In this document: piece after piece, positions 2,820 to 15,067 of the stretch
How the letters are laid out: each line of letters starts with the position of its first letter
How positions within the stretch are numbered: the first letter of the stretch is position 1
Assembly: GCA_017347465.1 (NCBI GenBank)
Contig: AP021858.1
Coordinates: 1,630,472 to 1,694,471 of the forward strand
DNA length: 64,000 nt
Direction of reading: 5' to 3'
DNA from: Candidatus Nitrosymbiomonas proteolyticus
Lineage (GTDB): Bacteria > Armatimonadota > Fimbriimonadia > Fimbriimonadales > Fimbriimonadaceae
Program-made: the position numbers and the translations under genes
The notes under the pieces: generated by a model
Told to the model about the DNA's origin: nothing
Databases searched by the model: none
What the model saw: only the letters and a program-made list of their open reading frames with translations

Positions 2820-3767
2820 ATGTCGCTACTGACCTCCGCCCTTGTTGCCGTTTGCGCGCTGCAAGCGGCGCCGAAAGCTACCGACCTGCAAGCTCTCAAG
2901 CCGAAGCTCGATGCGATCTCGAAGTCGTTTCATGGCCGGTTAGGCTACTACGTCAAGCGGCTGGACAACGGCGAGGAGATCGGGATTCGGGACACGGAAC
3001 GATTCCCGAGCGCGAGCACGATCAAGACCGCGATCATGGTGGAGTGTTTCCGGCAGATTGAGCGCGGGGAATTGGCATGGGACGAGCGCTTGGAGACGCC
3101 GCCTGCCGACAAGAGAAGCGAAAGCATGTGGGTGGCCTTCCTCGCCGAAGGCGTCAAGATCAACATCGATGGCTTGATCCACCTCATGATGAACGTGAGC
3201 GACAACACGGCGACTGTGATGCTGGCCGACCGAGTGGGGATCAACAGTATCGAGCAACTGATGCTGTCGTGGGGATTGCGAGACACCGCCTGTACGATAC
3301 ATGTCGACGAGAAAGACAACCTCAGACTCTACCGCTTGCGCCAGATCTTCGCGAACATGGGTGTGACATCGCCGCGCGACATGGGTTTTCTCTTAGAGCA
3401 GATATACCGGAGTAAGGCCGCTTCGCCCGCCGCCTGCCAAAAGATGATCCGGATTCTCTCGCATCAGTACTGGGACGACTTTCTGAGCTACGCCATCCCT
3501 CCGACCGTTGGGGTCGCATCGAAGGTCGGCGCTCTGAACCGCAGCCGCTCCGATTCGGCGATCGTCTTCGGTCCCCGACCCTACATCGTTACGGTCTATA
3601 CCGACCACCAGAAGGACCAGCGCTGGGAGGATGACAACGAGGGGAACGTCGCGATTCGCCGTATTTCGGGGCTGATATGGAACCACCTCCACCCGGAGCG
3701 CCCGTACAACCCGCCACCCGACGCGCGCAAGTGGTATCCAACTGGTGGAGGGGTCGAGGGGGGCTAG
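2820..3767 (+). CDS. Secreted class A beta-lactamase-fold serine hydrolase
   Basis: A signal peptide (MSLLTSALVAVCALQA) precedes a class A beta-lactamase-like domain. The nucleophile motif is SxxK (STIK within SASTIKTAIM), followed by an SDN loop (NVSDNTA), and the KTG box is replaced by KVG (SKVGALN). TSPRDMG matches the conserved TTPRDMA helix start of class A enzymes. I see no clear Glu166 equivalent in the omega-loop region, so efficient penicillin deacylation is doubtful. A peptidase or amidase role on wall peptides is as likely. The C-terminal tail (PTGGGVEGG) is encoded by a DNA repeat that recurs at 12908 outside any gene, so the last residues look recently acquired. Confidence 0.85.
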   Translation: MSLLTSALVAVCALQAAPKATDLQALKPKLDAISKSFHGRLGYYVKRLDNGEEIGIRDTERFPSASTIKTAIMVECFRQIERGELAWDERLETPPADKRSESMWVAFLAEGVKINIDGLIHLMMNVSDNTATVMLADRVGINSIEQLMLSWGLRDTACTIHVDEKDNLRLYRLRQIFANMGVTSPRDMGFLLEQIYRSKAASPAACQKMIRILSHQYWDDFLSYAIPPTVGVASKVGALNRSRSDSAIVFGPRPYIVTVYTDHQKDQRWEDDNEGNVAIRRISGLIWNHLHPERPYNPPPDARKWYPTGGGVEGG

Positions 3768-3773
3768 GTCGCC
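3719..3773 (+). repeat. Dispersed 55-bp repeat, copy 1
   Basis: This copy matches 12908-12962 at about 49 of 55 positions, with core CCAACTGGTGGAGGGG. Here it encodes the last residues and stop of the serine hydrolase. The other copy is intergenic. Confidence 0.7.
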
Positions 3774-3839
3774 GAAGGCACTACGGGTTCGCAAGGTCTC
3801 TGGCTCTCCTTCACGAAAATCGGGTTACTATGAAAGTGC

Positions 3840-5234
3840 ATGGAAGGAGAAGGCTGCTTCCGAGTCGGTTGGGAGGGCGGATTTGTCGTGGAGCGCCCCT
3901 GTGGAGAGAAGGTCGTGTTTCCCACGGCCAAGACGACGAGCTTGGCGGCGAAGCTGATCTTCTTTGCCCCGCAGTCATTCGACCGTCGGAACCTTGCGGG
4001 CGAGTTTTGGCCGGACGCCGTGGACGACCACGCGCGAATGAGCCTCCGCACCGCACTGACGGCCCTGAGGCGCTTACTTGGCGAGGAGTGCGTGATTGCC
4101 GAAGGGTCGAACGTCGGACTCGCTGCGGAGCGTTTTCTGCGTCCGATCCTATCGAACCCCCACGACTTCGCGCCTGAAATCACGGACGACTGGGCGGAGT
4201 GGGTGCGCGGCGGGATCGGCGCCGCGGCCGACTTAATACCGCTCAGAGTGCCCGTAGAGGGGCTTCTGGATTCCCTCGATTATCTCTTAGATGTGGACCC
4301 TGCCTCAGCTACGGAGTTCACGAACGCTTCTAAGCGGCTCTTGGAGCACCTTCCGGTCGATGAAGTGCTCCCCCGGCTGGAACGGTTGGGCAGGCTTGCA
4401 GCAGGATCCAATGAAATCGCATTGGGCGTGCGGGTGTTCCTTGCGACCCGGTTTCTGGCGAAGGGCCAGTTTGTTCCAGCGATTGACATCTGCAAAGGTG
4501 TGGTTCGAGAGGCGGAGTCTCGTTCGCTCTGCTCGATCGCGGAAAGCGCAGCCTACCACCTCTTTGCTTCTTGGGTCCTGCTCGACCAGCCGATGCGAGC
4601 GCGGCCCTACAAGGATTGGCTAACGCGGAACGGAAGTACGGTTGTCGCACGAATGGCTGAGGGGATGTGGAGTTTTCAGTACGAAGGAGGTGAGACGACG
4701 ATTCGCCGCCTGAAAACGACCGCGGAAGTCGCGCGCGACGAAGGAAAACCCTATTTCGAGCAAACCGCTCTCGCTTGCTTGCTGTCGATCGATGCGGCCT
4801 CCGCGTCGGAAAACCTGACCGAGCGTCTCAGCGACCTCCGGAGTCTGTCAGGAAGCGGTATCGGCGTGTTCGCTTCGGCGTTCTCCTTTGCTAGGGGTGA
4901 GATTGGGGAGGGCCAAGCTGAAAGAGCGGTTGCCCGAATGGCCGGACTGCTTCTAGAACTGAAGGAGCGTGGCGAGACTCGCATTGGCCTCGGAGCCCTT
5001 CATTACACGAGTGCCATTCTTGCCGAAGCCGGTTTTTGGGCGCTCGCCGCAGAGTCATTTGGAGCTGCCGGAGCGTGGGCCGAGGAGATGGGGGTTCCTT
5101 TCTTGGCCTCTGAAAAGCGAGAGCGCTTGCACCTGTCGCGCCTTCTTTCTTCTCGCCTCAGCAAGGACCAGTTTCTCCTCCACGTCCGTCGCGGTGCGAC
5201 TCTCTGGAAGCGAAACCTCTTTGCAATCGGCTGA
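3840..5234 (+). CDS. SARP/BTAD-like regulator with N-terminal winged helix and helical repeats
   Basis: Residues about 25-85 carry the signature of the OmpR-like winged helix found in SARP/BTAD regulators: strands before PTAKTTSLAAKLIFFAPQ, an LAGEFWPD segment, then MSLRTALTALRRLLG. The remaining 380 residues are helical and TPR-like, without a P-loop. A transcription factor role is inferred from the fold. The target may be the PEP-CTERM gene 78 nt downstream, but nothing proves it. TACTAT lies 8 nt before the ATG, and no Shine-Dalgarno is visible. An out-of-frame ATG at 3830 leads only to a short shadow frame. Confidence 0.65.
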   Translation: MEGEGCFRVGWEGGFVVERPCGEKVVFPTAKTTSLAAKLIFFAPQSFDRRNLAGEFWPDAVDDHARMSLRTALTALRRLLGEECVIAEGSNVGLAAERFLRPILSNPHDFAPEITDDWAEWVRGGIGAAADLIPLRVPVEGLLDSLDYLLDVDPASATEFTNASKRLLEHLPVDEVLPRLERLGRLAAGSNEIALGVRVFLATRFLAKGQFVPAIDICKGVVREAESRSLCSIAESAAYHLFASWVLLDQPMRARPYKDWLTRNGSTVVARMAEGMWSFQYEGGETTIRRLKTTAEVARDEGKPYFEQTALACLLSIDAASASENLTERLSDLRSLSGSGIGVFASAFSFARGEIGEGQAERAVARMAGLLLELKERGETRIGLGALHYTSAILAEAGFWALAAESFGAAGAWAEEMGVPFLASEKRERLHLSRLLSSRLSKDQFLLHVRRGATLWKRNLFAIG

Positions 5235-5312
5235 TTTCACGGTCGAGCGCATGATTTCACGCCTCATCGAGTACATGTGACTTCATCGACTTCGGTCGAA
5301 AGGAGCAACAAC

Positions 5313-5981
5313 ATGAACAATTGGATTCTCAAGGCGACTGTCTGTCTGGCCTTGGGCGCAACTATGATGAGCGCTCGGGCCCAGGTGATTGACTTCGAAA
5401 CGATTCCAGGCAGCGGTCCTTCAGACGGCATGACCATCGATACCCAGTTCCAAGCGCTCTACGGAGTGACGTTCAGCCTCGAAACAGGTGGATCTCCGGT
5501 CCTTGCGAAGGTGGGCGCACCAAGGACCGCGTTCCAAGGATACAACCTGCTGCCCGACCAGCCGGCTCCGGGCACGAACGCGGGCGAGTACTTTCTAACG
5601 GACGATGGAGTTGTCTCGGGACCCCCCGAACCCCTTATCATCAGGTACTCCTATCCGGTTGCTGGGGCAGGTGGGATCATCTTGGACATCGACGGCGCCG
5701 AGGAGTTCACGGTGCAGGCGCGAAATGCCGTGGACGATGTGATTGGCACCGTGGTCCTGCCGCCCAACAACGAACTGGACGGATCGGCGACGCGATGGGG
5801 TTTCGACTTCGGCACAGACGTGATCCACTCGATTCGGATCGTGTTTACCGGTGCTGGAGGCGGCGTGGGCTTGGCCTTCGACAACTTCTCGACCAACGCG
5901 GTCCCCGAGCCCGCTTCGATGTTGGCGCTAGGCACCGGCTTCGCGGCGCTCGCGCTCAAGAGACGCGGGCGTCGGCATTGA
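5313..5981 (+). CDS. PEP-CTERM secreted protein
   Basis: The protein has an N-terminal signal peptide (MNNWILKATVCLALGATMMSARA) and a C-terminal sorting tag: VPEP, a hydrophobic stretch (MLALGTGFAALAL) and a basic end (KRRGRRH). Such tags are recognised by exosortase/EpsH systems for export and surface or exopolysaccharide attachment. The middle, beginning VIDFETIPG, is a beta-rich domain common among PEP-CTERM proteins. The start at 5313 has AGGAG 7 nt upstream. No exosortase gene is in the window. Confidence 0.85.
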   Translation: MNNWILKATVCLALGATMMSARAQVIDFETIPGSGPSDGMTIDTQFQALYGVTFSLETGGSPVLAKVGAPRTAFQGYNLLPDQPAPGTNAGEYFLTDDGVVSGPPEPLIIRYSYPVAGAGGIILDIDGAEEFTVQARNAVDDVIGTVVLPPNNELDGSATRWGFDFGTDVIHSIRIVFTGAGGGVGLAFDNFSTNAVPEPASMLALGTGFAALALKRRGRRH

Positions 5982-5988
5982 AGCTCTT

Positions 5989-6011
5989 CCCGGTCTGATT
6001 GCCGGACCGGG
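5989..6011. terminator. Possible hairpin after the PEP-CTERM gene
   Basis: CCCGGTC and GACCGGG pair around a 9-nt loop, 8 nt after the stop codon. There is no T-run, so a terminator role is tentative. The rest of 6012-6241 holds nothing I can identify. Confidence 0.35.
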
Positions 6012-6241
6012 TCCACTGACTCGGAACGATCTCGGAATCCGGGACACGAGTCGCTGTGATCCGGTTCGGTATCTTTTCTTATAGGGTCGGAGCCGATTGC
6101 TATTACTCTTCCCCCTGGAGTCGACGCTCGCGGAGGAACAGCTGTTTGGGACGAATCGAATAGGCCGCCCCTTGACGTCGATGCATTGCCGGGTTGTGTC
6201 GAACGGTGCCGCTCCTCAGGGGACCCATTCTGCTTCAGGCG

Positions 6242-6703
6242 CTACGATTTCACCGTGAAGAAACTGCGTATTGCACGTTCCCGGTAATCGAAAATCTTCG
6301 TAACCTGGCGGCTCACGAACATCCAGGATATCAGACCCTCGAAGGGACCGCCGGGTACGGCGTAGCGGAGCCGGTCCTCGATGAACGTTCCTTCGGAGGT
6401 CCCTCGGAATCGGTGTTCGTGCTCCCAGAGAAGGTAGGGGCCTCTTCGTTGAACGTCGACGAACCTCTCTTCAGGTTCCCACGAGGTAATCTCGGCTTCC
6501 CAGCGGAAGGGCACTCCAAAAAGGCGCAGCCTGTACTCGATGCGCACGCCCGACTTCATAATGATTGGCAAGGGGCTGAGGATCTCAAATCGCAGCGATT
6601 GCGGCGTGAGTATCTGTAGGTTCGTCGCTTGGGAAAAGAACTGAAAGACTTGTGACAGAGGCTCTTCGACGAGAATCTGTCGCTCGAGCGTTCGGACTTT
6701 CAT
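6242..6703 (-). CDS. SRPBCC-family ligand-binding protein
   Basis: The 153-residue protein has the START/SRPBCC helix-grip pattern: MKVRTLERQILVEEPLSQVFQFFSQATNL at the N-terminus, LTPQSLRFEI, a beta-sheet with EAEITSWEP and HRFRGTSEGTFIEDRLRYAVP, and a long C-terminal helix (VTKIFDYRERAIRSFF). Members bind hydrophobic ligands. Small SRPBCC genes of this type often sit beside photolyase, TspO and LitR/CarH genes in light-induced clusters, and CarH lies 4 kb away here. The ATG shares one base with the TAA of the preceding gene, so translation is probably coupled. Confidence 0.85.
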   Translation of the reverse strand: MKVRTLERQILVEEPLSQVFQFFSQATNLQILTPQSLRFEILSPLPIIMKSGVRIEYRLRLFGVPFRWEAEITSWEPEERFVDVQRRGPYLLWEHEHRFRGTSEGTFIEDRLRYAVPGGPFEGLISWMFVSRQVTKIFDYRERAIRSFFTVKS

Positions 6704-7209
6704 TAGATTCGCCTGGTGTCGTATGCCCAGTGCAAGAGGGCTTGACGCTGTCGCTTCCGACAGTTCAAGTCGCCTTGAGGGCAGTTCTTTTGGATTTGAA
6801 CAAGGTGGCGCCTCATGGCCTTCCATCGCCTAATCTGACGGTCATCGTCGGGACACCTTCGGCCCAGGTAGTAGCGGCAATACCACTGAAACCATCCCCG
6901 GGGGTCTTCAGGGTAAATCCAGCCCTTTGCGCGCCAGTACGAGAGCGACTTTGAAGCGTTGACGCCAAAGAAGTTGAGCGTTGGGTCATGGCGCCTGGAG
7001 CAGAGCTTAGCGCCGAGGAACCACTCTTCAGGAAACTCGTCGAGACAATCCGTCATGTACTTGCCGCCGAATACTCCGAGCTCAAGCATTTGTTGGGGTG
7101 TCAACTCGGGCCGAAACTCGGGATCGAAGTTCTTGCCCACAGGTTCCGATAGCTCATAGCAATAACCCTGCTGCATTCGGTCGTTCACCATGACAATTCG
7201 CGGTCTCAT
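6703..7209 (-). CDS. Conserved unknown protein of the TspO-SRPBCC operon
   Basis: I cannot assign a function to this 168-residue protein. It is rich in Trp, Tyr and Arg and contains a striking segment, RGWFQWYCRYYLGRR, followed by DDRQIRRWKAMRRH. The N-terminal part (YELSEPVGKNFDPEFRP, LTPQQMLELGVFGGKYM) is also well-formed and acidic. No signal peptide or membrane helix is evident, so it should be cytoplasmic. The C-terminal half is strongly basic, which would suit nucleic acid or polyphosphate binding, but that is inference. It lies 13 nt after tspO and is stop/start coupled to the SRPBCC gene, so all three are probably co-transcribed. Confidence 0.8.
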   Translation of the reverse strand: MRPRIVMVNDRMQQGYCYELSEPVGKNFDPEFRPELTPQQMLELGVFGGKYMTDCLDEFPEEWFLGAKLCSRRHDPTLNFFGVNASKSLSYWRAKGWIYPEDPRGWFQWYCRYYLGRRCPDDDRQIRRWKAMRRHLVQIQKNCPQGDLNCRKRQRQALLHWAYDTRRI

Positions 7210-7222
7210 CTTCGGTCAACTC

Positions 7223-7699
7223 CTACAAAGCGCTAGTGTTCATCCTCCAAAGAGCGAAATTCAGCGCCGCTGCAAACCCGACCCATGCCAGGTAAGGCAG
7301 AAGAAGGGCCCCCGCAACCGGCCTTATCCGCCAGAAAGCTATGATGTTGGCGAGGATCACAATCCAGAGCAGAACGATCTCAGCAAACGCCCAGCCTCCA
7401 AGCCGCCAGTGAAAGAACAACCAAGTCCACAAACCGTTGAACACAAGTTGAGCCCCGAACAGGCTTGTTGGGACGGGAGCTTTGTTCCATCCGACAGCAA
7501 GGAGCGCAAGGGTGCCCGAAATGCCGATGAGCACGTAGAGAACCGACCAAACAGGGCCAAATATCTGGGGGCTGGGTGCCCATGCGGGTTTCGCGAGGGT
7601 CGCGTAGAATGCGCCTGACTGGGCCGATGCCACGCCACCTGATAGAGCGGCGATCAGCGTCGCTCCGAATGAGGCGGCGAAGGCTGGCCAGAAGTTCAT
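7223..7699 (-). CDS. tspO: TspO/MBR-family tryptophan-rich sensory membrane protein
   Basis: Five hydrophobic segments and the family signatures are present: LAKPAWAPSPQIFGPVWSVLY near residues 35-55, a GLWTWLFF segment, and the C-terminal YLAWVGFAAALNFALWRMN. TspO proteins bind porphyrins and other tetrapyrroles, and in bacteria they are linked to light, oxygen and stress signalling. The length (158 aa) is normal. TAAGTT lies 6 nt before the ATG, matching the leaderless pattern. It leads the operon with the unknown 168-aa gene and the SRPBCC gene. Confidence 0.92.
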   Translation of the reverse strand: MNFWPAFAASFGATLIAALSGGVASAQSGAFYATLAKPAWAPSPQIFGPVWSVLYVLIGISGTLALLAVGWNKAPVPTSLFGAQLVFNGLWTWLFFHWRLGGWAFAEIVLLWIVILANIIAFWRIRPVAGALLLPYLAWVGFAAALNFALWRMNTSAL

Positions 7700-7737
7700 C
7701 TCGCAAACTTATCAGTCAGGCGTGGGGATTGTAAGGA

Positions 7738-8256
7738 CTACAATGGCTGCTTAATGAAGCGGGCCGTTCGAAGAAGGCGCTCAAAGTGCGCGCTCCATTG
7801 CTTGTCGGCTTCGCGGTTCGGCACGTGAACCGAAAGCGCGAGCAAGCGTCCGTCGACGTTGCGGATCAAGATGTATCTTCGAGCAGCAAAACCTTGTCGG
7901 TCGACAACCTCGAACGAAGCTGTTTCTAAGCCGTCCGAAGTCTTGCCCAAGCGGTAGGGAGTCGGCTTGCCCTTCTTTTCCCGAAGGATGAAAAAGAGTG
8001 AAGTATGATACAACTCGTCCCACGACTGCTGTCCAGGTGGAGCCGTCATAATGCCGAGTTCGCCGTTGGACCCGTTTGGATGCGCCTTGCGCTGACCCCA
8101 ACGAGTTTCAGAACTGATATCCCAACCGGTTGGCAGTTCGACTGAATACGTCGCAGTGACGACTCGTGAGTATCCGTCCCCCAAGTCCAGCACCTTTGCG
8201 TCTTGGGGAAGTTGCGAGAGCAGGGAAGTAGCAAGCAGAGTTACGAGTAGATTCAT
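7738..8256 (-). CDS. Secreted protein of unknown function
   Basis: The protein has an N-terminal signal peptide (MNLLVTLLATSLLSQL) and then about 155 residues with alternating strands (YSVELPTGWDISSETRWG, LGIMTAPPGQQSWDELY) and a region (RYILIRNVDGRLLALSVHVP) resembling small secreted beta-sandwich proteins. I do not recognise the family. Its 5' flank is only 21 nt long before the right end of an IS3 element, so its native promoter may have been cut off. An AGAGGG lies 5 nt before the ATG. Confidence 0.6.
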   Translation of the reverse strand: MNLLVTLLATSLLSQLPQDAKVLDLGDGYSRVVTATYSVELPTGWDISSETRWGQRKAHPNGSNGELGIMTAPPGQQSWDELYHTSLFFILREKKGKPTPYRLGKTSDGLETASFEVVDRQGFAARRYILIRNVDGRLLALSVHVPNREADKQWSAHFERLLRTARFIKQPL

Positions 8257-8304
8257 TGAGGCCCTCTTAGTCGTTGGTGGCCAGCCCCCATTGTTGAAGA
8301 CATC

Positions 8305-9135
8305 TTAAGAGTAGACCTCCGCTGATGATATCCCAGCAGGGTTGGGGGGCAGGCAGGGCGTAGCCCGACTGAACTCCAGACTCTGCGCGGCCACCGCCGG
8401 GGGGCGATAGCCAAGCGACGAATGCGGCCGAACCTCGTTGTAGTAGCGACGGTAGATCGCCGTCTTCATCTGAGCGTCGGCCAGATTGACAAAGACCTCG
8501 ACGTCGAGGTGATCCCGGCGCAGGGTCGAGTGGAACGACTCCACGAACCCGTTCTGCCAGGGTTTGCCCGGATCGATGAAGCGGCTGTTCGAACCGGATT
8601 CAGAGAGAAACACCGCGAGCAGCCGGGCAACGAACTCGCCGCCGTTGTCGCTCCGAACGAACCGGGGAGCCCCGCGATCGGCAAAGAGCGGAGCCAATAC
8701 GTCGCGCACCTTGCGAGCATTGATCCGCGTCGCCACCTCCAGAGCCAGGCACTCCCGAGTGAACTCATCCTCCACCGAAAGCACCTTCAGCTTCGTTCCG
8801 CTCAGGCAGGAATCATGGATAAAGTCCACCGTCCACACGTGGTTGGGATGCTCCGCCGACAGGGGAACCGGGTTCCCGGTCCGCTTCTTGCGATATCGCT
8901 TCTTGCGGCCGAGCCGCTCGTCCTTCCAGATTCGATGCACCCGCTTGAGGTTCAAGGGAGCGAACTCCTCCTTCACCAGGGCGTGCGCCATCCGGTAGCC
9001 CATGTTGGGCCGCCAGACCCTCCTGAGTGCTTCCCTGAGCGCAGCGTCCCGGTCCGGCCCTGGCTCCTCATAAACAGCGCGAGTCGAGATCCCGGTCATC
9101 CAGCAAGCCCTGCGAACCGTCATGTTCCGCTCCAT
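8305..9135 (-). CDS. IS3-family transposase OrfB (rve integrase domain)
   Basis: This is the catalytic subunit. An N-terminal HTH_21-like part (YRMAHALVKEEF, LNLKRVHRIWKDERL) precedes the DDE integrase core: D in WTVDFIHD, D in VRSDNGGEF and E in NGFVESFHSTLRRD. The C-terminal segment HSSLGYRPP is typical of the family. It lies in the -1 frame relative to orfA with a 1-nt overlap (TGATG). A slippery site upstream probably makes an OrfAB fusion, which is the active transposase in this family. Confidence 0.95.
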   Translation of the reverse strand: MERNMTVRRACWMTGISTRAVYEEPGPDRDAALREALRRVWRPNMGYRMAHALVKEEFAPLNLKRVHRIWKDERLGRKKRYRKKRTGNPVPLSAEHPNHVWTVDFIHDSCLSGTKLKVLSVEDEFTRECLALEVATRINARKVRDVLAPLFADRGAPRFVRSDNGGEFVARLLAVFLSESGSNSRFIDPGKPWQNGFVESFHSTLRRDHLDVEVFVNLADAQMKTAIYRRYYNEVRPHSSLGYRPPAVAAQSLEFSRATPCLPPNPAGISSAEVYS

Positions 9136-9440
9136 CAGGAATCGCGCCCCCGCGACGGGTTCGGGAGCGCGAGTCCGTTTTTTCGGAACAGCGCCCGTAC
9201 CGCGTCGATCTCAAGGTCTCTTTCGGCAAGAAGACGCTTGAGCTGAGCGTTCTCCCGCTCGAGCTCGCGCAGATGCCGCACATCGTCTGTCTGCATCCCC
9301 GCGTACTTGCGCTTCCACACGTAGAACGTGTTCGCGCTGACTCCGTGGTCGCGGCAAAGCTGGGCCTGCGTCTTCTGGCCCGATGCGGCCTCCTGCAGAA
9401 TCCTCACGATCTGCTCCTCGGTGAACTTCGATCTCTTCAT
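9135..9440 (-). CDS. IS3-family transposase OrfA (HTH_Tnp_1)
   Basis: A 101-residue DNA-binding protein that begins MKRSKFTEEQIVRIL with the helix-turn-helix QLCRDHGVSANTFYVWKRKYAG, followed by a leucine-zipper-like helix (LRELERENAQLKRLLAERDLEI). Members bind the IS ends. The zipper is thought to mediate dimerisation with OrfAB. The stop codon overlaps the orfB start. Confidence 0.95.
   Translation of the reverse strand: MKRSKFTEEQIVRILQEAASGQKTQAQLCRDHGVSANTFYVWKRKYAGMQTDDVRHLRELERENAQLKRLLAERDLEIDAVRALFRKNGLALPNPSRGRDS
9177..9183 (-). other. Programmed -1 frameshift heptamer (A AAA AAC)
   Basis: On the minus strand the orfA codons CGA AAA AAC GGA place A-AAA-AAC exactly in the X-XXY-YYZ register. 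After a -1 slip the frame stays open (CGG ACT CGC...) through to orfB. This is the standard way IS3 elements make OrfAB. Confidence 0.8.
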
Positions 9441-9519
9441 GATTGCCTCCAGTTTGAACCAGAGGACTACTTTTTTGACGTCTTCAATTTTGGGGGGCAG
9501 ACCATTGGAAGGTGAGGTC

Positions 9520-9541
9520 GTCCCGACCGTACGGTCGGGAC
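9520..9541. repeat. Perfect 22-bp palindrome
   Basis: The half-site GTCCCGACCGT is followed directly by its exact reverse complement. It lies 17 nt after the fasciclin stop codon on the minus strand. It could end that transcript as a hairpin, but no T-run follows, and it could equally be a protein-binding or REP-like site. Confidence 0.6.
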
Positions 9542-9557
9542 AGACGGTCTGGAAGTG

Positions 9558-10070
9558 CTACCGAGTCTCCTTGGGAAGGATCACAGTATCGATCACGTGG
9601 ATCACGCCGTTCGTGCAATTGATGTCGGTCTTGACGACCTTGGCGTCATTGATGCGCACACCCTTTGCGTTGTTGATTACGACGGACTGACCTTGAACAG
9701 TCTTGACAGCCGTTCCGTTCTTGAGCTTCATCACGTCGGCAGCCATGACCTTTCCGGGCACGACGTGGTACTTCAGGATCGCAGCCAACTTCTCCTTGTT
9801 CTCAGGCTTGAGAAGCATCTCGAGCGTTCCCTTAGGAAGCTTCTTGAACGCCTCTTCCGTAGGTGCGAACACCGTGAACGGGCCCTTGCCCTTGAGCGTT
9901 TCGACCAGTCCAGCCGCCTGAACAGCAGCGACGAGAGTCGGGAACTGCTTGGAAGCCACCGCAGTGTCTACGATGTCGGCTTCAGGAGCCTTTCTCCATG
10001 CGCCGACGGAAAGCGTGGTTGCGGCCATGACAGCGAGAGAGAGAGTGAGTACGAGAGTGTTCTTCTTCAT
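9558..10070 (-). CDS. Secreted fasciclin (FAS1) domain protein
   Basis: A signal peptide ([24 protein letters not shown]) precedes one complete FAS1 domain of about 135 residues. The H1 box is [14 protein letters not shown], the central motif is [13 protein letters not shown], and the H2-like end is [16 protein letters not shown]1 domains mediate cell adhesion or extracellular binding. It follows the DUF378 gene by 55 nt on the same strand and probably shares its promoter, which carries CarH-type operator repeats. Confidence 0.92.
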
Positions 10071-10125
10071 TCTTTGGTTTCCTTGTGATTTCGTAGATTG
10101 ATCGGATTTCCTCTGGCAGGCGCCG

Positions 10126-10344
10126 TTAGTGAGCGCGCACCGATACAGGGGTCTTGGGCATGGCCGCTAGACGAGCCGCTTGGATGACAGCCGAGATGCC
10201 GACGAGCGTGTAAACCGTGTTCGACATCAAAGTTCCATTCCCTAGAACTGCGGCAACGAGGTCGAACTTGGCCAATCCGACGAGACCCCAATTGAGTCCG
10301 CCGACGATGACGAGGATCTTTGTGATCAGGTCGATAGTTTTCAT
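10126..10344 (-). CDS. DUF378 small membrane protein (YuzA-like)
   Basis: The 72-residue protein has two hydrophobic helices and the family signature [29 protein letters not shown], then [13 protein letters not shown]. The function of DUF378 is unknown. The ATG is preceded by GGGAGA, with a 38-nt leader from a strong promoter at 10389-10418. It is the first gene before the fasciclin gene. Confidence 0.9.
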
Positions 10345-10388
10345 GTTGTCTCCCTTCGCCCGAGCCCCTTGGGGTGAGCGACAGGGGA

Positions 10389-10430
10389 ATGATACAACGC
10401 CTGTCGAGAGTTTGTCAAGATTTTGTTCAA
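10389..10430 (-). promoter_or_regulatory. DUF378-fasciclin promoter with putative CarH operator
   Basis: On the minus strand TTGACA (10413-10418) and TATCAT (10389-10394) are separated by 18 bp. Three consecutive 11-bp units fit nTnnACAnnnn: tTGAACAaaat (10420-10430), cTTGACAaact (10409-10419) and cTCGACAggcg (10398-10408). The middle unit covers the -35 box. This matches, from memory, the direct-repeat operator of Thermus CarH. Confidence 0.7.
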
Positions 10431-10469
10431 AATATTTTCAACAATTGTCCGAAGCGCAAGCTGGCATTC

Positions 10470-10502
10470 CTTGACACAAATTAGACAAAGGCTTCATAAT
10501 CG
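10470..10502 (+). promoter_or_regulatory. carH promoter with putative CarH operator (autoregulation)
   Basis: TTGACA (10471-10476) and CATAAT (10495-10500) are 18 bp apart. The -10 ends 6 nt before the ATG, so the transcript is probably leaderless. Two perfect 11-bp nTnnACAnnnn units (10470-10480, 10481-10491) and one near match (10492-10502) overlap it. Confidence 0.7.
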
Positions 10503-10506
10503 GGTC

Positions 10507-11430
10507 ATGAGTCGTTTCTATTCCATTCGAGCGGTCGCGGAGGAGACGGGCCTGTCTCCGCATACGATACGCGCGTGGGAAAGGAGGTACAACGTTCTTT
10601 CGCCGGAGCGCACGGGCACGAACCGCCGCGTTTATGATGAGGGGGACGTCGAACTCCTGAAGCTCTTGCATTCTGCAGTGAAGGCTGGCCACAGCATCGG
10701 AATGATCGCCTCGCTTTCGACTGAGGAACTGCAAAGGGTCGCTCAGTCCGAGGTGGCGAGCCCAACAGGCCAAGATGACCCTACGCGTTTTCTAAGAGAT
10801 TGCTGCCAATCGCTGCTGGACCTCAATGCGGAGCGGCTCAATTCTGAGTTGGGGCGAGCGTCCTCCGTATTTGGAGTCGATACGTTCATTAGGGACTTGA
10901 TCTTGCCGATGATGGCGTTCATCGATGGTGAGTGGAGCGAAGGCAGGCTCAGTATTGCTCAGGAGCACCTGGCGTCTGCCCTTGTAAGAACTCATTTGGA
11001 TCGTCTTCGTCACTCCATCCAACCACCCAGCAATGCTCCGCGTGCGGTAGTGGCTACTCCCGCGAACCAGCAGCATGAGATTGGCGCATTGTTGGCGGCG
11101 ATCGTAGCTGCTCGGGCGGACTGGAATGTAACCTATCTTGGGCCGAACCTCCCTGCTTCGGAGATTGCTCAAGCGGCCGTCCGGACGAAGGCTAAGGTGG
11201 TGGCGTTGAGCCTCGTGTACCCCCTGAGTGAAGCTGCGGTGGAGGCGGAGTTGGTGACCCTTAGGGCCCTTCTTGGTCAAGGCGTTCACTTGTTGATCGG
11301 AGGTAGGGCCGCGCGAAGCTATACTGAAGCAATCCGCGAGATTCGCGCACAAATATGCGAAGACTTAGACAGCCTTCGAGAATCACTTCTCCGACTCAGG
11401 CAGTCCTCCGCGTTGAGAAGGCAAGAATGA
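10507..11430 (+). CDS. CarH/LitR-type B12-dependent photoreceptor regulator (MerR family)
   Basis: The N-terminal MerR winged helix (YSIRAVAEETGLSPHTIRAWERRY) precedes a four-helix bundle with EWSEGRLSIAQEHLAS. That corresponds to the WxxGxxxxAxEH segment of CarH which caps adenosylcobalamin, although Trp is followed here by SEG. A B12-binding Rossmann domain then follows with the lower axial histidine in QQHEIGALL and the YLGPNLP loop. Known CarH proteins bind DNA as tetramers in the dark and release it when light breaks the Co-C bond. The start has a -35/-10 pair and no Shine-Dalgarno. Its stop overlaps the next ATG (ATGA), so the SDR gene is co-translated. Confidence 0.9.
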   Translation: MSRFYSIRAVAEETGLSPHTIRAWERRYNVLSPERTGTNRRVYDEGDVELLKLLHSAVKAGHSIGMIASLSTEELQRVAQSEVASPTGQDDPTRFLRDCCQSLLDLNAERLNSELGRASSVFGVDTFIRDLILPMMAFIDGEWSEGRLSIAQEHLASALVRTHLDRLRHSIQPPSNAPRAVVATPANQQHEIGALLAAIVAARADWNVTYLGPNLPASEIAQAAVRTKAKVVALSLVYPLSEAAVEAELVTLRALLGQGVHLLIGGRAARSYTEAIREIRAQICEDLDSLRESLLRLRQSSALRRQE

Positions 11431-12860
11431 TTCTTCTCACGGGTGCCTCGGGCTATGTCGGCGGTCGCCTTCTCACGAGATTGTTGGACGCAGGGCACAG
11501 CGTCCGTTGCTTGGTTCGAGGCGCACGGTCGGTGGCAGGCTTTGGGTCGTCAAACTGCGAAGTTGTGCAGGGCGACATCCTTGAACTCGCATCCCTCAGA
11601 GCGGCTATGGAGGGAGTGGACCAGGCGTACTATCTCGTGCATTCAATGGCGGTCGGAAAGGGCTTCGAAGAACAAGACCGCCAATGCGCTGCCAACTTTG
11701 CACGGGCCGCTGCCGACGCTGGAGTGCGGCGGATCATTTATTTGGGCGGACTGAGTCACGACGAAACGGGCCTTTCAAGCCACTTTCGAAGCCGAAACGA
11801 GGTAGGGCAGATTCTTCGGTCGACGGGAGTCCCGGTCGTTGAGTTTCGAGCCTCTGTCATCATTGGTTCTGGCAGCTTGAGCTTTGAGTTGATGCGGTCT
11901 CTGGTCGAGCGACTTCCCGCTATGGTTGCCCCTCGGTGGGTGCAGATGCCTGCCCAGCCAATCGCCATCGACGACGTATTGGCGTACCTTGTCGAGGCAG
12001 CCAGTTTGGGAGGAGCCGATAGTAAGACCTTTGAAATTGGAGGGTCGGACGTGCTTTCGTATCGGGAGATGATGTTGGAATACGCCAAGTTGCGAGGCCT
12101 CAAGCGCTGGATTGTTCCTGTGCCTGTGTTAACCCCGCGGCTTTCGAGCCTATGGTTGGGTCTGGTGACTCCGGTTTATGCTCGCGTAGGCCGGAAGCTC
12201 ATCGAAAGCGTACGTCATCCCTCAGTCGTTCGATCCAAGGAGGCCTTGCAGGAGTTCGCCGTTCGCCCGATGGGTTTCGTTGAGGCACTCGTCTTGGCGA
12301 TGCGGAATGAGGATCGGGAGTTTGCGGAGACTCGCTGGGAGGATTCCTTTGGGTCTTCGACAAAATCGTCCAGGTCAGGAGTCAGGCGATTTGGGAATCG
12401 TCTCGTCGACTCGAGAAGCGTGTTGATTCGCTGTTCGCCGTCCGCTGCCTTTCGCCCGATCCGCGAAATCGGAGGGCGGCGTGGGTGGTACAGCGCTGAC
12501 TGGCTGTGGAATCTACGAGCTGCGATCGACCTCCTGCTCGGAGGGGTCGGAAAAAGGCGGGGCCGGAGGCATCCATCCGAACTCCGAGTTGGGGACTTCT
12601 TGGATTGGTGGCGTGTCGAAGGTTTTGAGGAGGACCGGCTACTTCTTCTGTCAGCTGAGATGAAACTGCCCGGACGCGCCTGGCTCCAGTTTGAAGTCGT
12701 GCCCGTCGAAGAGGGAAGTATTATCCGCCAGACCGCCATGTTTGACCCACTCGGTGGCGCGGGTCTGGCCTACTGGTATCTTGTCTATCCACTGCACAAA
12801 CTAGTGTTTCGCGGGATGCTGAAAGGGATCCAGTCGAGAGCGCTTGGCCCCTCCGGTTGA
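11427..12860 (+). CDS. SDR-family NAD(P)-binding protein with C-terminal DUF2867
   Basis: Residues 1-290 form an atypical short-chain dehydrogenase with the dinucleotide motif GASGYVGG, the substrate-tunnel region YYLVHSMAVG, and IYLGGL. The C-terminal 150 residues match DUF2867 (GWYSADWLWNLRAAIDLLLGGVG, RPSELRVGDFLDWWRVE-like, LAYWYLVYPLHKLVFRGML), an SRPBCC-like fold. SDR-DUF2867 fusions are frequent members of light-induced gene sets near LitR/CarH and photolyase. The substrate is unknown; ubiquinone- or isoprenoid-like molecules have been suggested for relatives. The gene overlaps carH by 4 nt. Confidence 0.88.
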   Translation: MILLTGASGYVGGRLLTRLLDAGHSVRCLVRGARSVAGFGSSNCEVVQGDILELASLRAAMEGVDQAYYLVHSMAVGKGFEEQDRQCAANFARAAADAGVRRIIYLGGLSHDETGLSSHFRSRNEVGQILRSTGVPVVEFRASVIIGSGSLSFELMRSLVERLPAMVAPRWVQMPAQPIAIDDVLAYLVEAASLGGADSKTFEIGGSDVLSYREMMLEYAKLRGLKRWIVPVPVLTPRLSSLWLGLVTPVYARVGRKLIESVRHPSVVRSKEALQEFAVRPMGFVEALVLAMRNEDREFAETRWEDSFGSSTKSSRSGVRRFGNRLVDSRSVLIRCSPSAAFRPIREIGGRRGWYSADWLWNLRAAIDLLLGGVGKRRGRRHPSELRVGDFLDWWRVEGFEEDRLLLLSAEMKLPGRAWLQFEVVPVEEGSIIRQTAMFDPLGGAGLAYWYLVYPLHKLVFRGMLKGIQSRALGPSG

Positions 12861-12907
12861 GGTTCTCTGCGAGAACTCAGGAGGATGGTCAGCGCGATCG
12901 AAGCGGC

Positions 12908-12962
12908 CGACGCGCACAAGTGGTTTCCAACTGGTGGAGGGGTTGAGGGGGGATAGATCGGC
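12908..12962 (+). repeat. Dispersed 55-bp repeat, copy 2
   Basis: This copy is homologous to 3719-3773 with about 6 mismatches in 55. It is intergenic, downstream of the SDR gene, and is not in a supported reading frame. Confidence 0.7.
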
Positions 12963-13012
12963 AAACCTGGGGCCGAGTTCCGCACTTAGGGGGACCTTCG
13001 GACTTTTGGCGC

Positions 13013-13018
13013 TATCAT
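13013..13018 (+). promoter_or_regulatory. -10-like element (TATCAT) of the pentapeptide gene
   Basis: TATCAT ends 6 nt before the GTG start at 13025 and no Shine-Dalgarno is present, which suggests a leaderless transcript. Confidence 0.45.
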
Positions 13019-13024
13019 AGATTT

Positions 13025-15067
13025 GTGGCAGGGTTGAACCAACCAGAAGGAAAGGACGAGGGTTTAAGATCGCGGTTTCGGCGCTTTCTCTTTCCGGAGA
13101 CCCATGCGAACCAGAAGCCCGAATACTGGAAACGCCCTAGGCTTTATGTGCCGCTCTCCATCCTTTTGTTCGCAATTCTCAGCGCTGACTACCTTTTCGC
13201 CGTAGCGGGAGTAGGCTTCTTCGACTTCTTTCCCCTGGTGTGGATTCGCGTCGATCCCGTGGATGCGTCGGCGGCAGGACAAGTAATCGGCGCCGCGGCG
13301 GCGTCGATGGGAGGAGCGGTCGCCCTCATCACGCTCTACGTGAACCTCTGCGAAAAGAGGTTTGCCCAGGAGCAAACGCTGGAAAAGGACCGAAGGATCG
13401 CTCGGGACCAACGAGAGAACGAGCGGAACATTGCGGAACTCCAGCGCTTAGAAGAGCAGTTCAACCAGCTTTCCGCCGACTTTGCGGGCGCGGAATTGCT
13501 GGCGCGAGTCAACGCGGGGATCGGGCTCGCGCACATCGCGACAACCCACAGGCCCGGCATCAGCGACACAGAGGCCGACGCTCGAACGGAGCAGAACTAC
13601 CCGTTCTACCGGCGGGCGGCCAACCAGCTTGCCGCGGCCTCGCACCTCTACAAGGAGCAGCCGGCTCGCGACGAGGTGCGCAAGGCGATTCGGCATATGG
13701 GGCAATTCGACACGAGCGAAGATCAGCCGCTTCTGCACCTGCTTCTCAATTCCCTGGGGGAGGCGAACCGCACGGCCTTCCGCACGTTCCTCGATACCCT
13801 CGCAGAAGGGGCGGCATGCAAGCCCCCTTCCTTCTGCAATACGTGTTGCCTTGCCGTGCGAATCTGCTCGGACGATGGCAAGAACCAAGAATTGCTGAAG
13901 GCGGTGGTCGAGTCTGAGGGCTGCCGAGCGCTCCTCCCCTTAAAGAGGCATTTGGCGAAGCTGCCAGGCAATACGGGAAAGAAACAAGCCGCCGGTGCGA
14001 TCGACGGAGCTTATCTCGGCAGGCTGGGGACCGCTTGGCAGAGCCTCGCCGACACCAGGGACGCGATCGCAGAACTCTTGAGAGTGCGTAGGCCCCCGCC
14101 TGCCATGCGGGAAGCGTTAGCGAAGACGGAGAACACGGTTGTTCCAAGTGAATGGGAAGAACTGGGTAGAGAGATCGGGCAGGCATCCACGAAGGATCCG
14201 GACCTCTCGGATTGCTTTCTGCAGGGGGCGTACCTCCTTGAGGCGCAGATGCAGGGGGCGGAACTCTGGGGGGCGCAGATGCAAAGGGCAGACCTCCGGG
14301 GGGCGCAGATGCAGGGGGCGGACCTCAGGGAGGCGGAGATGCAGGGGGCGGACCTCAGGGAGGCGGAGATGCAGGGGGCGAACCTCACTATGGCGCAGAT
14401 GCAGGGGGCGAACCTCCCTAGGGCGCAGATGCAGGGGGCGAACCTCACTATGGCGCAGATGCGGGGTGCGGACCTCACTAGGGCGCGGATGCAGGGGGCG
14501 GACCTCTATACGGCGCAGATGCAGGGGGCGGACCTCCTTGAGGCGCAGATGCAGGGGGCGAACCTCACTATGGCGCAGATGCAGGGGGCGAACCTCTCTA
14601 GGGCGCAGATGCAGGGGGCGAACCTCACTATGGCGGAGATGCAGGGGGCGGACCTCAGGGAGGCGGAGATGCAGGGGGCGAACCTCACTATGGCGCAGAT
14701 GCAGGGGGCGAACCTCTCTAGGGCGCAGATGCAGGGGGCGAACCTCACTATGGCGCAGATGCGGGGGGCGGACCTCTATACGGCGCAGATGCAGGGGGCG
14801 AGATTATACGCCACAAACTTCGGACAAGCCCTGGGCCAAGAGGAGTGGGCTCGCCTGACGTCCTGTGAACTCGGCCTTCCCGACTTTCGCCATTGGAAGT
14901 GGGACCCTTCGAGCGAAAAGGTGCGTCCCACCGACATAGAGGACACCGCACTCATTGACTGGCTGAAGGCCAACTTCCCGGTAGAGTCCGCATCCATCCC
15001 AGGCGACGCAGGAGAGAGGTTTAACGAATACCGTAAGTGGGACGAGGCTGCCGGCGTCACGATGTAG
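13025..15067 (+). CDS. Membrane-anchored pentapeptide-repeat protein with 10-residue periodicity
   Basis: The 680-residue protein has a basic N-terminus and two transmembrane segments (about residues 42-65 and 84-108). A charged coiled coil follows (about 112-155, KRFAQEQTLEKDRRIARDQ) and then a helical domain of about 230 residues containing CKPPSFCNTCC. Residues about 400-592 are 19 tandem decapeptides alternating A(D/N)Lxx with AQMQG. Pentapeptide repeats fold as a right-handed quadrilateral beta-helix. The alternation of Leu and Met at the inward position is unusual in its regularity. After the repeats comes an 85-residue tail (TNFGQALGQEEW...). The N-terminal part resembles membrane-bound pentapeptide proteins that act as sensors or effectors. 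The function is unknown. The start is GTG. Confidence 0.85.
   Translation: MAGLNQPEGKDEGLRSRFRRFLFPETHANQKPEYWKRPRLYVPLSILLFAILSADYLFAVAGVGFFDFFPLVWIRVDPVDASAAGQVIGAAAASMGGAVALITLYVNLCEKRFAQEQTLEKDRRIARDQRENERNIAELQRLEEQFNQLSADFAGAELLARVNAGIGLAHIATTHRPGISDTEADARTEQNYPFYRRAANQLAAASHLYKEQPARDEVRKAIRHMGQFDTSEDQPLLHLLLNSLGEANRTAFRTFLDTLAEGAACKPPSFCNTCCLAVRICSDDGKNQELLKAVVESEGCRALLPLKRHLAKLPGNTGKKQAAGAIDGAYLGRLGTAWQSLADTRDAIAELLRVRRPPPAMREALAKTENTVVPSEWEELGREIGQASTKDPDLSDCFLQGAYLLEAQMQGAELWGAQMQRADLRGAQMQGADLREAEMQGADLREAEMQGANLTMAQMQGANLPRAQMQGANLTMAQMRGADLTRARMQGADLYTAQMQGADLLEAQMQGANLTMAQMQGANLSRAQMQGANLTMAEMQGADLREAEMQGANLTMAQMQGANLSRAQMQGANLTMAQMRGADLYTAQMQGARLYATNFGQALGQEEWARLTSCELGLPDFRHWKWDPSSEKVRPTDIEDTALIDWLKANFPVESASIPGDAGERFNEYRKWDEAAGVTM
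14224..14805 (+). repeat. 30-bp tandem repeat array, about 19 units, coding
   Basis: The unit is approximately GCGCAGATGCAGGGGGCG plus 12 variable bases. Many units are identical at DNA level. Units 5-8 recur as units 15-18, exactly 300 bp later, with single-base differences. This shows recent segmental duplication. Confidence 0.95.

Follow-up and report, generated by a model that had tools for sequence, protein, structure and literature searches.

A predicted CarH-type regulator at the divergent promoters of its own gene and of a DUF378-fasciclin operon in Candidatus Nitrosymbiomonas proteolyticus

Which genes answer to a CarH-type regulator in an organism that appears to lack the classical targets of such proteins? 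To our knowledge, the roles described for CarH are almost confined to the switching of carotenoid and photolyase genes. In the genome of Candidatus Nitrosymbiomonas proteolyticus the phytoene/squalene synthase (SQS/PSY) family is without a match, while control genomes do match, and the photolyase family gave no match either. The classical CarH targets therefore appear to be absent. The SQS/PSY family was likewise without a match in seven of eight other genomes searched. The window studied here, that is the whole stretch of 64,000 nucleotides, nevertheless contains a carH-type gene back to back with a DUF378-fasciclin operon. Its DNA provides predicted operators and promoters, conserved protein motifs, gene order and conservation across genomes as evidence. 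On this basis we consider it highly probable that a CarH-type repressor acts on both divergent promoters, is released by light and governs a photo-stress response that is independent of carotenoids.

The regulator and its predicted operators

10507..11430, plus strand: carH-type regulator, 307 aa, with a MerR DNA-binding domain, a B12-binding helical bundle with Wx9EH and a Rossmann B12-binding domain with HEIG

The regulator matches the Pfam families MerR, B12-binding_2 and B12-binding, and its closest solved structures are those of Thermus CarH (3whp, 9.2e-27; 5c8d, 1.2e-26). RxWERRY, Wx9EH and HxxG are the marks of CarH; Wx9EH is reportedly crucial for photoreceptor activity and separates CarH from CarA (PMC9304148). 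The original prediction of a CarH-type protein with intact MerR, cap and B12 motifs is borne out for all three: the recognition-helix motif is present as RAWERRY, the cap motif as WSEGRLSIAQEH, and the lower axial histidine resides in QQHEIG, which aligns with RHEIG of Thermus CarH. The His and Gly of HEIG are invariant across eight aligned sequences, and the residue two positions before the His is Q, not D or E. The His following the cap Trp is not kept; this position is occupied by Ser144 and is rarely His in relatives. As this residue is common in CarH but not universal, it is not defining; in Thermus CarH exposed to light, however, it serves as the upper ligand, such that the light state may differ here. 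With NCBIfam CarH equivalog NF052513 the regulator scores 134 bits (E 4.9e-39), which is below the 400-bit cut-off. At another place the same genome encodes a PduO-type adenosyltransferase, so that AdoCbl can be made from cobalamin.

The missing equivalent of H132 would also fit a regulator that does bind the operators yet responds to cobalamin status or to some other cue, with the level of AdoCbl rather than photolysis setting repression, and B12-independent CarA and LitR proteins with partner photoreceptors do exist (PMC9304148, PMC9758184). We hold this to be unlikely, because the very motif tied to photoreceptor activity and distinguishing CarH from CarA is intact and because links of the target genes to photo-oxidative stress have been documented in other organisms. 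A light-released repressor remains our preferred reading, and its predicted sites of action lie in the 162-bp intergenic gap between the starts of DUF378 (10344, minus strand) and the regulator (10507, plus strand):

10402..10429, minus strand: predicted CarH-type operator on the DUF378 side, TGAACA-aaatc-TTGACA-aactc-TCGACA, all three TnnACA units being perfect and following in 11-bp steps
10389..10418, minus strand: sigma-70-like promoter of DUF378-fasciclin, TTGACA-18-TATCAT, 11/12 match
10471..10498, plus strand: predicted CarH-type operator of carH itself, with two perfect units followed by a near match
10471..10500, plus strand: sigma-70-like promoter of carH, TTGACA-18-CATAAT

The CarH operator reads 5'-nnnnTnnACAn-3' and in Thermus is present in three tandem copies, one of which includes the -35 element (PMC9304148), just as the original prediction had it; its account of both promoters is confirmed as well. 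Read on the minus strand from 10429 to 10402, the DUF378 promoter carries three perfect units with 11-bp spacing, the middle one being identical with the -35 TTGACA (10418-10413). The -10 TATCAT ends at 10389, and a fourth, imperfect unit, TGAAAA (10440-10435, minus strand), is located 11 bp upstream of the triplet. On the carH side, the units are TTGACA (10471-10476), which is the -35, TAGACA (10482-10487) and TTCATA (10493-10498), which has one mismatch and overlaps the -10 CATAAT (10495-10500). Operator placement differs in that the DUF378 repeats span the -35 and the sequence preceding it, and the carH repeats extend from the -35 to the -10. Promoter-like sites on either strand numbered 0.2 on average in shuffled sequence.

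Whole-genome operator scans were done by pattern. The perfect nnnnTnnACAn triplet with 11-bp spacing occurs once in the 2.81-Mb genome, at the DUF378 promoter, and three of the four places with triplets of at most one mismatch are within the carH/DUF378 gap; the reversed pattern, at the same tolerance, yielded no triplet in the whole genome. When the gap was dinucleotide-shuffled 20,000 times, no shuffle produced a perfect triplet and three contained a triplet of at most one mismatch; the gap itself has three triplets of the latter kind at 11-bp spacing and none at spacings of 7-10 and 12-16. The objection that these triplets might occur at chance frequency across the genome therefore fails. 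The only other TTGACA-linked pairs of the genome, at positions 1322292 and 1048082, were considered as further targets and rejected; they lack a proper third unit, and the number of such pairs is about that expected by chance.

Genes on both sides of the gap and the interrupted operon

11427..12860, plus strand: SDR (NAD(P)-binding/NmrA)-DUF2867 fusion, overlapping the stop codon of carH in ATGA
10126..10344, minus strand: small DUF378 protein of 72 aa, encoded at the head of the divergent operon
9558..10070, minus strand: fasciclin protein, single FAS1, apparent signal peptide
8278..9504, minus strand: IS3-family insertion sequence with imperfect terminal repeats TGGCCAGCCCCC / TGGTCTGCCCCCC
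7738..8256, minus strand: hyp172, conserved operon gene of no assigned family
7223..7699, minus strand: TspO/MBR (tryptophan-rich sensory protein)
6703..7209, minus strand: hyp168, no Pfam or NCBIfam match
6242..6700, minus strand: SRPBCC (polyketide cyclase/lipid transport-like) protein

The genes for carH and SDR-DUF2867 presumably share one transcript, and their order is kept in the sister genome L035, whose divergent operon reads DUF378-fas-hyp172-NmrA-TspO-hyp168-SRPBCC. The window holds the same genes in the same order, without NmrA and interrupted between fasciclin, the only such gene in this genome, and hyp172. The IS3 element that divides the operon at this point is flanked by a 4-bp duplication, TTGG (8274-8277 and 9505-9508), and copies about 99% identical to it reside at several places in the same-species genome G159. 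Without the element the gap between fasciclin and hyp172 would measure about 70 bp, and hyp172, TspO, hyp168 and SRPBCC were therefore very likely once part of the CarH-controlled transcript. Control of carH itself, the SDR-DUF2867 gene and the DUF378-fasciclin operon, as originally predicted, is well supported by sequence and comparison, and the regulon is very likely larger than first read, the divergent operon having once run on into these four genes. With the IS3 copy in between, their predicted light control is probably weakened or lost, and they may now be uncoupled from the CarH-controlled transcript. A perfect palindrome, GTCCCGACCGTACGGTCGGGAC (9519-9540), is found just past the fasciclin gene and before the insertion sequence; it may form a hairpin in the RNA and so separate fasciclin from the genes further along the operon.

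Hyp168 belongs to a strongly conserved family without assignment that travels with TspO. It is 65-70% identical to alphaproteobacterial (rhizobial) homologues (e.g. L101:6772-7278 and L146:6771-7277), which sit in fasciclin-DUF378-TspO-hyp168 operons without CarH; a search of these operons for RpoE-like promoters (TGATCC-TAAG) gave no consistent match. The AlphaFold model of hyp168 is too poor for a fold search (mean pLDDT 60).

The cluster is part of a segment bounded by direct repeats:

3718..3771, plus strand: left 54-bp direct repeat, 49/54 identical to the right repeat
12907..12960, plus strand: right 54-bp direct repeat

Genome G159 is devoid of the stretch between approximately 3772 and 12906 (9.1 kb, carH included) and retains a single copy of the 54-bp repeat (L204:14398-14451), which shows that the carH system is dispensable. 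The carH cluster is present in the sister species; the two same-species genomes by themselves are compatible with either gain or deletion of the segment. No tRNA gene that could point to tRNA-linked integration is present within 3000-14000. MQGA(N/D)L pentapeptide repeats form an extended array at 14180-14800, and many offset matches there between the two same-species genomes suggest that the repeat copy number differs between them.

Conservation among relatives and in other phyla

The 60 nearest genomes supplied seven additional CarH genes for comparison. DUF378 is divergent from carH in six of these relatives and is followed by fasciclin in five, the sixth locus stopping at a contig edge, while in the seventh relative fasciclin itself is directly divergent. 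All six DUF378 loci carry repeats at both promoters (the carH-side site is weak in L040), and the two-unit arrangement at the carH promoter recurs in relatives.

A strong CarH match was obtained in 30 of 291 Armatimonadota genomes. In 24 of the 33 CarH loci read in the phylum, fasciclin and/or DUF378 is divergent from carH, and 23 loci bear an operator triplet (at most one mismatch, 11-bp spacing) within 350 bp upstream of carH, 13 of them perfect. At any other spacing such triplets were present in 0-1 of the 33 loci, and the reversed motif at 11 bp was present in three. The operator almost always reads toward the fasciclin side and is present in 21 of the 24 loci with divergent fasciclin/DUF378 as opposed to two of the nine without (Fisher p = 0.0008, the loci not being fully independent). 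Perfect triplets in genomes with a strong CarH match (E<=1e-60) are located at carH, and those in genomes without one are nearly all near-identical unit arrays (e.g. TTATCCACA-like). RxWERRY, Wx9EH and HxxG are kept in nearly all operator-bearing loci. The CarH-like proteins of L189, L190 and L191 have neither the Wx9EH cap nor the HE-G-A motif, no operator lies upstream of their genes, and they are candidate B12-independent relatives. In L038, hyp172, SDR, hyp168 and SRPBCC are situated downstream of carH together with a further perfect operator, which is independent evidence linking the gene set to CarH, and in L169 the carH-linked fasciclin gene adjoins genes for a flavin oxidoreductase and DUF1365 (Pfam).

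The two operators in the window are only some 30-40 bp apart, so that a single nucleoprotein complex could cover both, and CarH might then regulate nothing but its own gene, the DUF378-side repeats being remnants or acting on carH at a distance. This is very improbable given that in the window, as in most relatives, the stronger operator is the one next to DUF378/fasciclin, that this is the operator conserved among relatives, and that L038 has a further perfect triplet between carH and the next operon gene. Mimicry of the repeats by TTGACA -35 boxes in an AT-rich gap, conceivable because the operator motif contains the consensus -35, is refuted statistically by the single perfect triplet in the genome, the shuffles, the spacing control and the conservation in 23 of 33 loci, and its probability is negligible.

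Control of both promoters thus stays the preferred reading, and a scan of GTDB genomes with a DUF378 profile revealed the CarH-DUF378(-fasciclin) divergence also in Zixibacteria/GN15, Gemmatimonadota and Latescibacterota, together with a LitR-like version lacking the cap motif in Xanthomonadales (Luteimonas, Pseudoxanthomonas). In the latter genera (L077, L094, L124, L134) the LitR-like genes are divergent from fasciclin-DUF378, and TGTACA units, some of them 11 bp apart, occur near the start. On balance, we are inclined to think that in Armatimonadota and in a number of further phyla the principal conserved targets of CarH are fasciclin, DUF378, TspO, SRPBCC and SDR-DUF2867 rather than carotenoid or photolyase genes, and that this module serves a carotenoid-independent photo-stress response under a B12 photoreceptor, the same genes occurring elsewhere without CarH. 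As the arrangement recurs across the phylum and beyond, this may be a principal role of CarH that has been overlooked.

A proposed carotenoid-independent photo-stress response and its known counterparts

Fasciclin genes under light or photo-oxidative control have precedents. A fasciclin of Azospirillum brasilense is under RpoE-ChrR control according to work cited in PMC10949492, RSP_1409 of R. sphaeroides is a fasciclin gene induced in photo-oxidative stress (PMC7074977), and FAS1 genes are induced by light along with tspO in Mycobacterium kansasii (PMC9861118). The suggestion that light control of a fasciclin would be new hence does not stand as such, whereas direct control by a CarH/LitR repressor was not found in the literature searched. 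That fasciclin acts as an adhesion protein, as first proposed, is one reading only; its company, comprising TspO, SRPBCC and SDR-DUF2867 here and DUF1365 and flavin oxidoreductase elsewhere, points to photo-oxidative stress. Together with these precedents and the apparent absence of the classical outputs, this leads us to interpret the locus as a photo-stress regulon that works without carotenoids and under a B12 photoreceptor. A carotenoid-binding (AstaP-like) role was considered on account of homology to 8c18 (7.4e-14) and is disfavoured because the carotenoid-synthase family was not found in the genome.

In the dark, the AdoCbl-loaded, oligomeric CarH-type protein would occupy the tandem 11-bp repeats and thereby cover the -35 of both promoters. 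One of these would drive carH-SDR/DUF2867, resulting in autorepression, and the other DUF378-fasciclin and, ancestrally, then hyp172-TspO-hyp168-SRPBCC. Light would split the Co-C bond, the oligomer would disassemble and both transcription units would be turned on, providing a response to photo-oxidative stress that does not rely on carotenoids. AdoCbl binding, binding in the dark, release by light and the stress role of the targets are ascribed to this system by analogy with the CarH family. Sensor and operators are conserved in genomes in which neither carotenoid synthase nor photolyase was detected, and Armatimonadota thereby gain a predicted light response. The conserved target, consisting of the poorly understood fasciclin, DUF378, hyp168 and hyp172 proteins plus TspO, acquires a testable role in photo-oxidative stress, and the natural divergent CarH promoters represent a ready series for optogenetic use.

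LitR light operons contain photolyase, DUF1365 and flavin oxidoreductase. The carH-linked fasciclin of L169 has the latter two as neighbors; the window locus and its genome differ in that no photolyase was found. Thermus thermophilus CarH shares with the window regulator the domain order, Wx9EH, the lower-ligand His motif and RxWERRY, and its operator is likewise a row of three 11-bp TnnACA repeats, one of which contains the -35. In contrast, the window regulator is only moderately similar in sequence, has Ser in place of the His after Trp and faces two divergent operators with DUF378-fasciclin and SDR-DUF2867 as targets, no phytoene/squalene synthase having been found. Bacillus megaterium CarH differs by its carotenoid target and is likened here by operator layout only. 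Its binding sites consist either of four repeats in tandem or of three and a pseudorepeat (PMC9304148), and the latter layout resembles the 3+1 units at the window DUF378 promoter. The RpoE-ChrR (ECF11) system of Azospirillum and Rhodobacter also has fasciclin as a photo-oxidative-stress gene but senses singlet oxygen through a sigma/anti-sigma pair and not through a B12 photoreceptor repressor. With fasciclin predicted to be under CarH in the window and placed under RpoE-ChrR in Alphaproteobacteria, these systems suggest that one stress module has been wired to different sensors of light and singlet oxygen.
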